Under the pieces are notes generated by a model that saw only the letters and a program-made list of their open reading frames with translations, did no database searches and was not told the DNA's origin. Of a stretch of DNA of 64,000 nt, positions 22,199-24,902 are shown piece after piece (the stretch's first letter is position 1; every line of letters starts with the position of its first letter). The stretch comes from Candidatus Kapaibacterium sp. (GTDB lineage Bacteria; Bacteroidota; Ignavibacteria; Kapaibacteriales; UBA4661). The stretch spans positions 1 to 64,000 of the forward strand of contig JALONG010000043.1 in assembly GCA_025455065.1 (NCBI GenBank), written 5' to 3'. Made by a program: the position numbers and the translations under genes.

Positions 22199-22771
22199 GT
22201 GAATTTCGAGACACTTGCTCATCAATACCGCGAAATGACCGACAAGGGTATTCTCATGTCGTTCAAAGGGGCATTTGCGCAGCCAATTCTTGTTGAAATC
22301 GGTCAAACGCTGCGCGGAAAAATTGCCGTGCAGCCGATTGAATCAATCTCAGAACGCACAATGCTGACAAAAAAAATTTTCGCTATTTTTGTCGAATTGA
22401 CACAAAACGTGATGTTCTATTCGGCAGAGCAGGAATTGGATGAACACGGCAAAGAATGTGGCATCGGGCTTCTGGTCATTAGCGAAACGCCGGAAACATA
22501 CCGCATCAGCTCTGCAAATCAAATCGTAACAGCAGATATGGAACGTGTTCGCCAGAAATGTGAATCACTTCAACGTTTGTCGAAAGAAGAACTTAAAAGC
22601 CGCTACAACGAACAGCGCCGCGAACCTCGCTCATCAAGTAAGGGTGCGGGTTTGGGTTTTTTAGACATTGCCCGCAGAGCCGATTTGCCGCTTGATTTTG
22701 CATTTACACCACTCAATGATGAACGTGCTTTATTCATGCTTTCGGCATCGGTGCTGAAACATTCTGCATAA
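22199..22771 (+). CDS. siaB: SiaB-family protein kinase (DUF6272)
   Basis: 190-residue GHKL-like kinase of the SiaB family. In Pseudomonas aeruginosa SiaB phosphorylates SiaC, opposing the SiaA phosphatase. The family start ILMSFKGAF is at residues 18-26, an N-box-like FAIFVELTQNVMFYS at 61-75, and a glycine-rich ATP lid GAGLGFLDIARRA near 150. The start is a GTG with no obvious ribosome site; the next ATG (22235) would remove 12 residues. It opens a plus-strand cluster with a dsRNA-binding protein, SiaC and a class III cyclase. No SiaA-like PP2C phosphatase is in the window. Family recognition is firm; the kinase role is by homology. Confidence 0.85.
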   Translation: MNFETLAHQYREMTDKGILMSFKGAFAQPILVEIGQTLRGKIAVQPIESISERTMLTKKIFAIFVELTQNVMFYSAEQELDEHGKECGIGLLVISETPETYRISSANQIVTADMERVRQKCESLQRLSKEELKSRYNEQRREPRSSSKGAGLGFLDIARRADLPLDFAFTPLNDERALFMLSASVLKHSA

Positions 22772-22830
22772 CAAAAGCATTACTCCTTCACAACAACGTA
22801 ACAAGAGTATCACTTTTTCCGTCACTCATC

Positions 22831-23283
22831 ATGCCAGCAGCGAAAGCAACCACAGCGAAAGTAACCCTCACAAAAGCAACCGCAGCAAAGATAACCCCGA
22901 CAACAGAGGAAACAAAAGCGGTAAAAAAAACGCCCAAAGCATCGGCGAAAACATCAACCGAAGTAGCCTTTGCGACAAGTATTGACCATGTTCGCACGGC
23001 ATTTGCCGCACTTGCCCCCGAAGAGCAGCGTACCTTGCTTGCAGAGTGGACGCAGGCGATAACAAGCGCGAACTCGCTTACGCAGCTTGTCGAACTTGTG
23101 CAAAAAGAATACGGTGCAAATTTAACAACGGAAGTCTGGACAGAAGGCGCTGCACACGTTCCACTTGTCTATTGCAAAATCACGCTTCCCAACGGCACAG
23201 AATACACCGCAAGCGGCAAAAACCAGAAAGCCGCAAAACAGCTTGCCGCCGAAGAAGCACTTTCTGATTTGAAGAACGCATAA
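22831..23283 (+). CDS. double-stranded-RNA-binding domain protein with a basic tail
   Basis: 150 residues. Residues 1-45 are a Lys/Thr/Ala-rich, histone-H1-like disordered tail. Residues about 82-147 form a dsRBD: helix 1 SLTQLVELVQKEYG, loop EGAAHVPLVYCKI with the conserved His109, strand TLPNGTEYTASG, and the helix 2 phosphate-contact pattern KNQKAAKQLAAEEAL (K133, K136, AA). This matches the RNase III C-terminal domain, but no nuclease domain is attached. It lies between siaB (59 bp) and siaC (33 bp) on the same strand. The RNA target is unknown; free-standing dsRBD proteins are uncommon in bacteria. Confidence 0.85.
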   Translation: MPAAKATTAKVTLTKATAAKITPTTEETKAVKKTPKASAKTSTEVAFATSIDHVRTAFAALAPEEQRTLLAEWTQAITSANSLTQLVELVQKEYGANLTTEVWTEGAAHVPLVYCKITLPNGTEYTASGKNQKAAKQLAAEEALSDLKNA

Positions 23284-23316
23284 AACCTCTCTGAACAAAA
23301 GAACGTCAATAACACC

Positions 23317-23700
23317 ATGAACGATATTTCTCTTACCAAAACCACCACCACCCCAGCAATCACGGCACGTGTAGCCGACGGCTTTGTCGAGATTGACGGG
23401 GACTCATATCCCGAAAACTCGGTTGATTTTTTTCAGCCAATTTTTCAGTGGTTTCGGGATTTTATGGCGACGCAAAAGCGCCATTTGACCGTACATTTCC
23501 GTATGCCTTATTTCAACACCAGTTCTTCAAAATGTTTGCTGGATATTTTGGATATGCTCCAAAGTTACCACTACACAAGTGGCGGCGCGGTTGAAGTTAC
23601 GTGGTGGTACGATGAAAACGATGACGATATGCTGGAAAGCGGCAAAGAATTAGGTGACGGCTTAGATTTGAAGTTCCTTTTTATGCCCTACGCGGACTGA
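23317..23700 (+). CDS. siaC: SiaC-family regulatory phosphoprotein (DUF1987)
   Basis: 127-residue SiaC homologue. The phosphorylation site motif YFNTSSSK places Thr68 at the same number as the regulatory Thr68 of P. aeruginosa SiaC. In that system unphosphorylated SiaC binds and activates the diguanylate cyclase SiaD. Family blocks VEIDGDSYPENSVDFFQP and VTWWYDENDDDMLESG are present. The gene follows the dsRBD gene and precedes a class III cyclase, so the likely client here is that cyclase rather than a GGDEF enzyme. That last step is inference. Confidence 0.88.
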   Translation: MNDISLTKTTTTPAITARVADGFVEIDGDSYPENSVDFFQPIFQWFRDFMATQKRHLTVHFRMPYFNTSSSKCLLDILDMLQSYHYTSGGAVEVTWWYDENDDDMLESGKELGDGLDLKFLFMPYAD

Positions 23701-23846
23701 GGAAAAAATGAAGGAAAAAATGAAGTTCTGAAGCGCTCTTCGGACATTCTTATCTTTCCCTTCCACTATCCCCGAAAAAAAAACACTACCGATTTTTCAC
23801 GCTTTCGAGAGAAGCATTTGTACACAAGCACGTGGACACAAGCACT

Positions 23847-24902
23847 ATGAAATCCGGCACGATGACACAACAAAGCAGCATCAGTGCTTCCGTTGCCTCG
23901 GTGCTGGGGTCGTCAGCGACGGATAATCTGACGGAAATGTTCAAAAGCGAACTCGAAACGCTGGAGCAGTATCACCGCACCATTAACAGCCCCGAACTTA
24001 CTTTTGAAGAGCTTCTCCAAGAATATCGGATGCTGGGGGAACGCTACGAAAATCTTGTCAGGCAAGCCGGCAAACTCACGCGCATCGGCGATGTGGCACA
24101 GCGCAAACTTATCAATGCCAAAGGTGAGCTTGCAGCACAATCGGAAGTGATTGAAAGGGCAAATTCCGAACTCCAAGAAAAAAATGAGCGTTTGCGCGAA
24201 TCGTTGGAAGAAATCAATCAACTGAACGTCAATTTAGGCATCGAACAGGCGCAAGCAGACAATCTGCTTTTGAACATTTTGCCGCCGGACATCGCAGCAC
24301 GCCTCAAAGAAGGGGAAGAAAATATTGCGGATTTGTTCGAGGATGCAACCGTCGTTTTTACCGACATCGTAGGTTTCACCAATCTTGCATCCTTAGTTTC
24401 CGCCACAACGATTGTCAAACTCCTCAATATGCTTTTTTCCCGCTTCGACAAACTTCTTGACCATTTCCCCGTCGAAAAAATCAAGACCATTGGCGACAGT
24501 TATATGCTTGCCTCCGGCATCCCGACACAACGCAAAGACCACGCCTTGCAAGCAGCATCCTTCGCCTTTGCAATGCAAAATGAACTCAATCGTTTCGTAG
24601 CAGAAACAGGCTACCCGATTTCCATGCGTATCGGCTTGCATAGCGGTCCGGTTGTAGCAGGAATTATCGGCACTCGGAAGTTTGTCTATGACCTTTGGGG
24701 CGACACGGTAAACATCGCAAGCCGCATGGAATCTCATGGGCAGCCGGGGAAAATTCACTGTTCGGAGACGGTGTATGAACGCCTGAAAACTGTCTATCAA
24801 TTTGAACGGCGCGGCGCTATTGACATCAAAGGCAAAGGCAAAATGGACACCTATTTTTTGATTGGCAGCCTCACGAATAATTCTGCGTTGCAAGAATTGT
24901 AA
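23847..24902 (+). CDS. class III adenylate cyclase with N-terminal coiled coil
   Basis: About 351 residues; a GTG at 23832 is an alternative start. Residues 35-140 are a long coiled coil, including EYRMLGERYENLVRQAGKLT, resembling the signalling stalk of SiaC-controlled cyclases. Next comes the cyclase transducer NLLLNILPPDIAARLKEG and the catalytic domain: metal Asp173 (FTDIVGF) and Asp217 (IGDSYM), base-selecting Lys211 and Asp282 (YDLWGDT), then Asn289 and Arg293. Lys plus Asp at the selecting sites predicts ATP, giving cAMP. There is no membrane segment, so it is cytosolic. It ends the SiaB/dsRBD/SiaC cluster, 146 bp after siaC. Confidence 0.92.
   Translation: MKSGTMTQQSSISASVASVLGSSATDNLTEMFKSELETLEQYHRTINSPELTFEELLQEYRMLGERYENLVRQAGKLTRIGDVAQRKLINAKGELAAQSEVIERANSELQEKNERLRESLEEINQLNVNLGIEQAQADNLLLNILPPDIAARLKEGEENIADLFEDATVVFTDIVGFTNLASLVSATTIVKLLNMLFSRFDKLLDHFPVEKIKTIGDSYMLASGIPTQRKDHALQAASFAFAMQNELNRFVAETGYPISMRIGLHSGPVVAGIIGTRKFVYDLWGDTVNIASRMESHGQPGKIHCSETVYERLKTVYQFERRGAIDIKGKGKMDTYFLIGSLTNNSALQEL

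Follow-up and report, generated by a model that had tools for sequence, protein, structure and literature searches.

The locus and its genes

The window, a stretch of 64,000 nucleotides from Candidatus Kapaibacterium sp. (assembly GCA_025455065.1, contig JALONG010000043.1, positions 1 to 64,000 of the forward strand), carries between positions 22,199 and 24,902 a candidate Sia-type partner switch, namely a siaB-like kinase gene, a siaC-like phosphoprotein gene and a class III nucleotide cyclase gene whose N-terminal stalk is the main subject of this work. An earlier note on this DNA had described the three genes as lying in a row on one strand; they do share the strand, but they do not follow one another directly, since a small gene for a protein with a double-stranded-RNA-binding domain (dsRBD) stands between siaB and siaC. 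The features of the cassette are the following.

22199-22771, + strand: siaB-like gene for a GHKL-type kinase, 190 aa, GTG start (PF19788 (DUF6272), E 9.6e-39; 6kko_A, E 7.4e-20)
22394-22396, + strand: codon of the presumed catalytic Glu66 of SiaB (alignment with Pseudomonas aeruginosa SiaB)
22831-23283, + strand: gene for a small dsRNA-binding-motif protein, 150 aa, inside the cassette (PF00035, E 1.1e-7)
23317-23700, + strand: siaC-like phosphoprotein gene, 127 aa (PF09345, E 1.6e-38; P. aeruginosa SiaC, E 4.1e-21)
23518-23520, + strand: codon of Thr68, the predicted SiaC phosphorylation site (aligned to P. aeruginosa T68)
23832-24902, + strand: class III nucleotide cyclase gene with a predicted N-terminal SiaC-docking stalk, 356 aa from GTG 23832 (PF00211, E 4.1e-64)
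23913-24161, + strand: cyclase stalk, about residues 28-110, matched by profile A6 (E 1.1e-27, the cyclase being one of the 14 rows of A6)
24063-24116, + strand: predicted SiaC-docking motif, cyclase residues 78-95, corresponding to SiaD 74-91 (profile alignment; contacts from the available text of PMC8457831)
24336-24863, + strand: class III cyclase catalytic domain, PF00211, residues 169-344 (Pfam search)
24483-24485, + strand: codon of Lys218, presumed adenine-selecting position (alignment)
24690-24692, + strand: codon of Asp287, presumed adenine-selecting position (alignment)

The match between the window SiaB and P. aeruginosa SiaB places Glu66 on the conserved Glu of the IEMTQN motif, and this residue is presumed to be the counterpart of the catalytic E61 given in the available text of PMC7647112. 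SiaC aligns with its P. aeruginosa homologue with N67-T68-S69 in register, so that the Thr68 pointed out in the earlier note does coincide with P. aeruginosa T68. The cyclase probably starts at ATG 23847 rather than at GTG 23832, because a homologue of 79% identity (locus L048) begins there. D178, D222, N294 and R298, which we take to be the two metal Asp and the transition-state Asn and Arg of a class III cyclase, are all present in the aligned catalytic domain, and the base-selecting Lys and Asp that had been claimed are both in place: Lys218 and Asp287, at what we assume to be the adenine-selecting positions of class III cyclases, align with those of mammalian AC9, which the EKIKTIG and YDLWGDTVNIASR segments also match. 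These two residues point to ATP as the predicted substrate, and hence to cyclic AMP (cAMP) as the predicted product; the best PDB matches of the window cyclase are adenylate cyclases.

Resemblance of the cyclase stalk to SiaD

In the SiaABCD system of P. aeruginosa, SiaC is phosphorylated on Thr68 by SiaB and dephosphorylated by SiaA; the effector is the GGDEF enzyme SiaD, in which free SiaC orders the dimer of the stalk (PMC7278518, PMC7647112, PMC8457831). According to the available text of PMC8457831, the SiaD residues in contact with SiaC are R74, K77, V78, R80, I81, S82, D83, R84, Y85, Q86, M88, R90 and D91; Thr68 of SiaC is bonded to S82 and Q86, and joint mutation of Ser82 and Gln86 weakened the function of SiaD.

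The stalk of the window cyclase resembles the N-terminal stalk of a histidine kinase encoded on contig C86 of the same genome, 3' of a siaC past a DnaG-like gene, and a profile made of these two stalks ranked SiaD (7e6g) fourth among 177,635 PDB sequences (E 0.26). Profile A5, which was enlarged with relatives encoded next to siaC in other genomes and holds the stalks of two cyclases, six histidine kinases and four membrane proteins and of zero GGDEF proteins, placed SiaD first among the same 177,635 sequences, aligned at SiaD 64-100, with an E of 0.014 that is not significant by itself. A control profile built on the pre-catalytic coiled coils of ten other cyclases of the genome did not have SiaD among its 27 PDB hits, and on this control, together with the genome counts for stalk and SiaC given below, a chance resemblance between coiled coils was rejected.

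In this alignment the SiaD contacts from R74 to Q86 meet cyclase residues Q78, K81, L82, R84, I85, G86, D87, V88, A89 and Q90, and RIGDVAQ stands in the cyclase where SiaD has RISDRYQ. The claim of the earlier note that the stalk is of the SiaD type is thereby borne out by a profile match on the SiaC-contact motif, whereas EYRMLGERYENLVRQAGKLT, the segment that it had named, does not hold up as the core: the core starts at the end of that segment and covers residues 78-95. We compiled an interface table of 34 SiaC/stalk pairs plus the P. aeruginosa reference, with three pairs left uncounted (L004, a truncated copy of L002, and L049 10434 and L140, both with a misplaced automatic anchor). In the 31 usable pairs the residue at SiaD position D83 is kept in 31/31 and that at Q86 in 30/31, and SiaC position 68 is Thr in 27/31 and Ser in 4, Ser68 being found in SiaCs that adjoin stalk-only proteins of 77-99 residues (L142, L143, L144 and L152). 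The table also hints at a charge swap, in which SiaC Arg103 is paired with acidic or polar residues at the place of SiaD 91, and Asp103 elsewhere with basic or polar ones; this hint was not counted as evidence, because the Arg103 group consists of three rows that group together. Two docking motifs occur in L104 and L102. The ERT signature of the signalling helix, as defined in the available text of PMC1592074, was not found on inspection of cyclase residues 1-165, and no Pfam family for the RsbU N-terminal domain appeared among the Pfam hits up to E 1.

Association of the stalk with SiaC across genomes

Named SiaC loci were the best 80 of 556, mainly from Bacteroidota, with 1,159 chosen open reading frames (ORFs). 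Among these ORFs the first stalk profile gave seven matches outside its training set at E <=1e-3, six of which begin within 62 bases after the siaC match, the seventh (L049) lying two genes further on in the same cluster. A co-directional ORF starting <=150 bases after siaC is present at 17 of the 80 loci, and 12 of these 17 ORFs bear the stalk; most of the sampled SiaCs have no partner in view, because the remaining 63 loci are without such an ORF.

In a sample of 395 genomes from the phylum, the stalk was found by its profile in 17, PF09345 in 21 and both in 16 (Fisher p 2.8e-23, counts and p value alike ignoring kinship among the genomes). In this phylum sample 21 of 29 stalk genes lie <3 kb from a siaC on the same strand, and 21 of 32 SiaC genes have a stalk <3 kb away; SiaC and stalk hits are equal in number in the source genome (3/3) and in two congeners (4/4 and 3/3). 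An order sample of 123 genomes, overlapping with that of the phylum, has the stalk in 18, SiaC in 20 and both in 17; here SiaC outnumbers the stalk by one in three further congeners, and genome G465 has seven SiaC hits and one stalk. Of the SiaC hits in G465 (contigs C194, C295 and C141), several are weak and lie in longer frames of 246-333 aa, which may represent SiaC fusions.

Sia components and cyclases in the source genome

The source genome holds three SiaC, three SiaB, 26 PF00211 domains, one GGDEF domain, 11 SpoIIE phosphatase domains and 19 cNMP-binding (cyclic-nucleotide-binding) domains. Its stalk proteins are also three, namely the window cyclase, the C86 histidine kinase and an orphan histidine kinase on contig C112; a whole-genome stalk search without a flank limit, in which 13 of 29 first-look candidates from this genome were scored and later all 29, returned the same three hits. 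Only the window's domain among the 26 cyclase domains is matched by the stalk profile, the others having been read in flanks of about 1.5 kb, where a far-upstream stalk in a long protein would escape; the view that the window cyclase is one of many similar cyclases was rejected on this count. A GGDEF enzyme with a SiaD stalk elsewhere in the genome, which the earlier note had named as speaking against its proposal, was not found, the lone GGDEF protein (contig C54) falling outside the stalk hits.

The note's remark that no SiaA is nearby is correct for the window but does not extend to the genome, where SiaA-type phosphatases adjoin the two other siaBC pairs. The search for SpoIIE-type phosphatases that it had proposed gave the 11 domains mentioned above, two of them directly beside the siaBC pairs on contigs C42 and C86; these two share a PP2C subfamily with the SiaA that a congener encodes in its operon (E <=9e-50), the other hits of the genome standing at 6e-7 or weaker. 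The presence of SiaA-subfamily phosphatases beside the other siaBC pairs suggests that a phosphatase acting on SiaC probably exists in the cell, encoded outside the window operon.

Related cassettes and their phylogeny

Nine siaC-cyclase cassettes were found in 8 genomes of the family (7/8 genomes of the genus plus one of another genus); the SiaC of one of them (L252) was hidden in the cassette listing by greedy ORF choice, yet is present. The order siaA-siaB-siaC-cyclase is seen in four of the nine (G275, G466, G467:C473 and G465), the SiaA of G275 having CHASE8, HAMP and SpoIIE domains, and siaB-dsRBD-siaC-cyclase in three, including the window's; the G337 cassette is without the dsRBD gene. 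Three other genomes of the genus keep a gene with the dsRBD motif in the cassette: G468 (locus L048) and G469 have it between siaB and siaC, G467:C269 in front of siaC.

In the cyclase tree, from which domains shorter than about 150 residues and exact copies were excluded, the nine cassette cyclases form one clade (99/95) in which the siaA-bearing G465 branches first. A second clade consists of four further stalk-cyclases, of which three belong to a Chlorobia-type family and the fourth to a different one. The tree of stalk-cyclases needs two changes and would still admit a single origin. The cyclase-partnered SiaCs (8 rows) likewise group into one clade (88/79), which branches in the order seen for the cyclases; this SiaC tree omitted near-identical SiaCs, that of G466 among them, and took 8 of the 82 SiaCs without a partner in view. 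This joint inheritance is separate from the SiaC clade that accompanies the C86-type kinase. By parsimony, the operon would ancestrally have included siaA, which the lineage of the window would have lost or moved.

Proposed mechanism and rival explanations

Taken together, these results make it likely, in our judgement, that the locus encodes a partner switch of the Sia type with a class III adenylate cyclase as its output, the cyclase being activated by unphosphorylated SiaC acting on the stalk. The 19 cNMP-binding domains of the genome count in favour of this reading too. The gating by SiaC of a cyclase predicted to make cAMP, as the earlier note had proposed, came through every sequence test that was run. 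Binding of SiaC to the stalk, its phosphorylation, the direction of the switch and the product of the cyclase we infer from sequence and from analogy with SiaABCD. SiaB would phosphorylate SiaC on Thr68, and a SiaA-type PP2C phosphatase encoded elsewhere in the genome would dephosphorylate it; free SiaC would then dock on the stalk dimer of the cyclase and order it, thereby switching on the cyclase and the synthesis of cAMP, while phosphorylation of Thr68 would prevent docking. The active sites of class III cyclases are formed by a dimer of catalytic domains, and ordering of the stalk is therefore a plausible activating step.

Several observations weigh against this proposal. Where SiaD has Ser82, which together with one other residue is hydrogen-bonded to Thr68, the cyclase has Gly; it also has no Tyr counterpart of SiaD Tyr85, and bears one docking motif compared with two in SiaD. 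By the 150-base co-directional criterion, a stalk gene next to siaC was not found at 68 of the 80 named SiaC loci. No siaA was found beside the window genes and no SpoIIE hit on contig C128, and siaB was not found beside the dsRBD-siaC-cyclase genes of G467:C269. A promoter and terminator scan marked a weak terminator-like site in the gap from siaC to the cyclase (23727-23744); with seven found against 4.8 expected, the scan as a whole is at about the level of chance. The AlphaFold2 model of the cyclase, computed from a two-sequence alignment, is of low confidence (mean predicted local distance difference test 49.6) and leaves the catalytic domain unmodelled; a single helix at residues 58-149 is fair and the remainder unreliable. 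To these are added the two limits given above, on the significance of the SiaD match and on kinship in the co-occurrence counts.

The best-surviving alternative, which we nonetheless consider unlikely, retains the docking of SiaC on the cyclase stalk and reverses its sense, so that SiaC would keep the cyclase off or the phosphorylated form would act. SiaD is the only case that has been measured, and Gly for Ser82 together with a single motif could alter the outcome; however, Thr68 is kept, as are the Asp and Gln that in SiaD contact the loop around it, and class III enzymes need paired catalytic domains. Slightly less probable is a form of cross-talk whereby the window SiaC would mainly control the stalk histidine kinases (that of C86 or the C112 orphan) and the cyclase would answer to several SiaCs. 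The three SiaCs and three stalk proteins of the genome leave room for such wiring, as do the lack of a dedicated siaA at the window and the congeneric cassette without siaB beside it, whereas the co-inheritance of SiaC and cyclase with matching branching, and the separate position of the SiaC clade of the C86-type kinase, argue for a dedicated pair.

We give very little credit to the reading of the stalk as an ordinary coiled-coil linker, a signalling helix, with siaC kept close as a matter of operon convenience and SiaC acting elsewhere. Signalling helices do connect sensors with cyclases, kinases, PP2C and GGDEF domains, according to the available text of PMC1592074; however, the stalk profile hits 17 of the 395 genomes, all but one of which have SiaC, the other coiled-coil cyclases of the genome are unmatched, the stalk is without the ERT signature, and its motif falls on the part of SiaD that SiaC contacts. 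Production of cGMP, or a lack of strict base preference, is scarcely to be expected of the cyclase, for while the preference is read from two residues only, Lys218 and Asp287 are as in adenylate cyclases, which also provide the best PDB matches.

Relation to known systems and to other putative SiaC outputs

The cassette is like P. aeruginosa SiaABCD (6kko, 7e6g) in its SiaB with a presumed catalytic Glu, in its SiaC with Thr68, in an effector adjoining siaC and in the predicted SiaC-binding motif on the stalk of that effector; it is unlike SiaABCD in that the effector is a class III cyclase (PF00211) and not the GGDEF enzyme SiaD, in its single motif, in Gly for Ser82, in the lack of an operonic siaA and in the dsRBD gene within. 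The RsbT-RsbU and stressosome outputs (Bacillus subtilis; a diguanylate cyclase of Moorella) follow the same principle, a partner ordering a helical linker and dimerising an exchangeable output, as described in the available text of PMC12143880; there, however, the RsbT kinase binds the RsbU N-terminal domain, whereas here the partner would be SiaC, a STAS-like phosphoprotein, and the stalk is of another kind. The outputs given in that text are PPM, histidine kinase, GGDEF and protease adaptor, with class III cyclases not among them. Class III adenylate cyclases with signalling-helix linkers have the same catalytic domain on an N-terminal helix; unlike these, the window cyclase has no fused sensor domain and is predicted to be controlled in trans by SiaC.

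A literature search, with subscription journals mostly outside its reach, found no account of a class III cyclase or histidine kinase as a target of SiaC. In its available part, a comparative-genomics paper cites SiaABCD as merging with c-di-GMP (cyclic di-GMP) only (PMC9239204), and the authors of the crystal structure, in the available text of PMC8457831, suggested that SiaC-family (DUF1987) proteins generally modulate adjacent proteins. The Sia switch has so far been known from a pathway that controls biofilms, in which it drives a c-di-GMP enzyme, and here the same docking segment appears to sit on an enzyme predicted to make cAMP; if this is true, a partner switch controls cAMP synthesis. 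With the stalk profile, the DUF1987 suggestion becomes a set of candidate partners and named residues that can be tested for SiaC in other bacteria.

Beyond its stalk, a stalk protein may end in a class III cyclase, GGDEF, HisKA-HATPase or SpoIIE/PP2C domain, in short helices judged by eye to have likely transmembrane segments, or in nothing further. We lean, with a little more than even confidence, towards SiaC being the hub of a plug-in form of signalling, in which a stalk some 50 residues long, which SiaC would recognise in its dephosphorylated form, would be placed on at least five outputs (class III cyclase, GGDEF, histidine kinase, PP2C and membrane anchor); if true, the same design of phosphoswitch governs outputs as different as cAMP, c-di-GMP, a phosphorelay or a phosphatase.

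Some individual loci are worth recording. Directly after siaC, at L192:5967-7013 and L193:5379-6401 (G196 and G385), a stalk is followed by a PP2C/SpoIIE-type phosphatase (PF07228, E 2.1e-35, in L192; by eye in L193), an arrangement that possibly represents a SiaC-controlled phosphatase cascade. Stalk-cyclases with no siaC hit on the same contig are found at L146, L148, L150 and L138 (G125, G272, G133 and G280). In G125, G272 and G133, three Chlorobia-type genomes, the single SiaC adjoins a stalk-GGDEF gene, whose frame is broken in G272, while the stalk-cyclase is unlinked, so that one SiaC may drive both messengers at once; G280 has the stalk and no SiaC hit. A DnaG-like primase gene separates siaC from the stalk histidine kinase at L046:7214-10618, and at the G337 and G470 loci the gap is about as large. 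Finally, at L077:9413-10378 SiaB and SiaC are fused in one frame of 322 residues, followed by a short stalk protein that has a likely membrane anchor.

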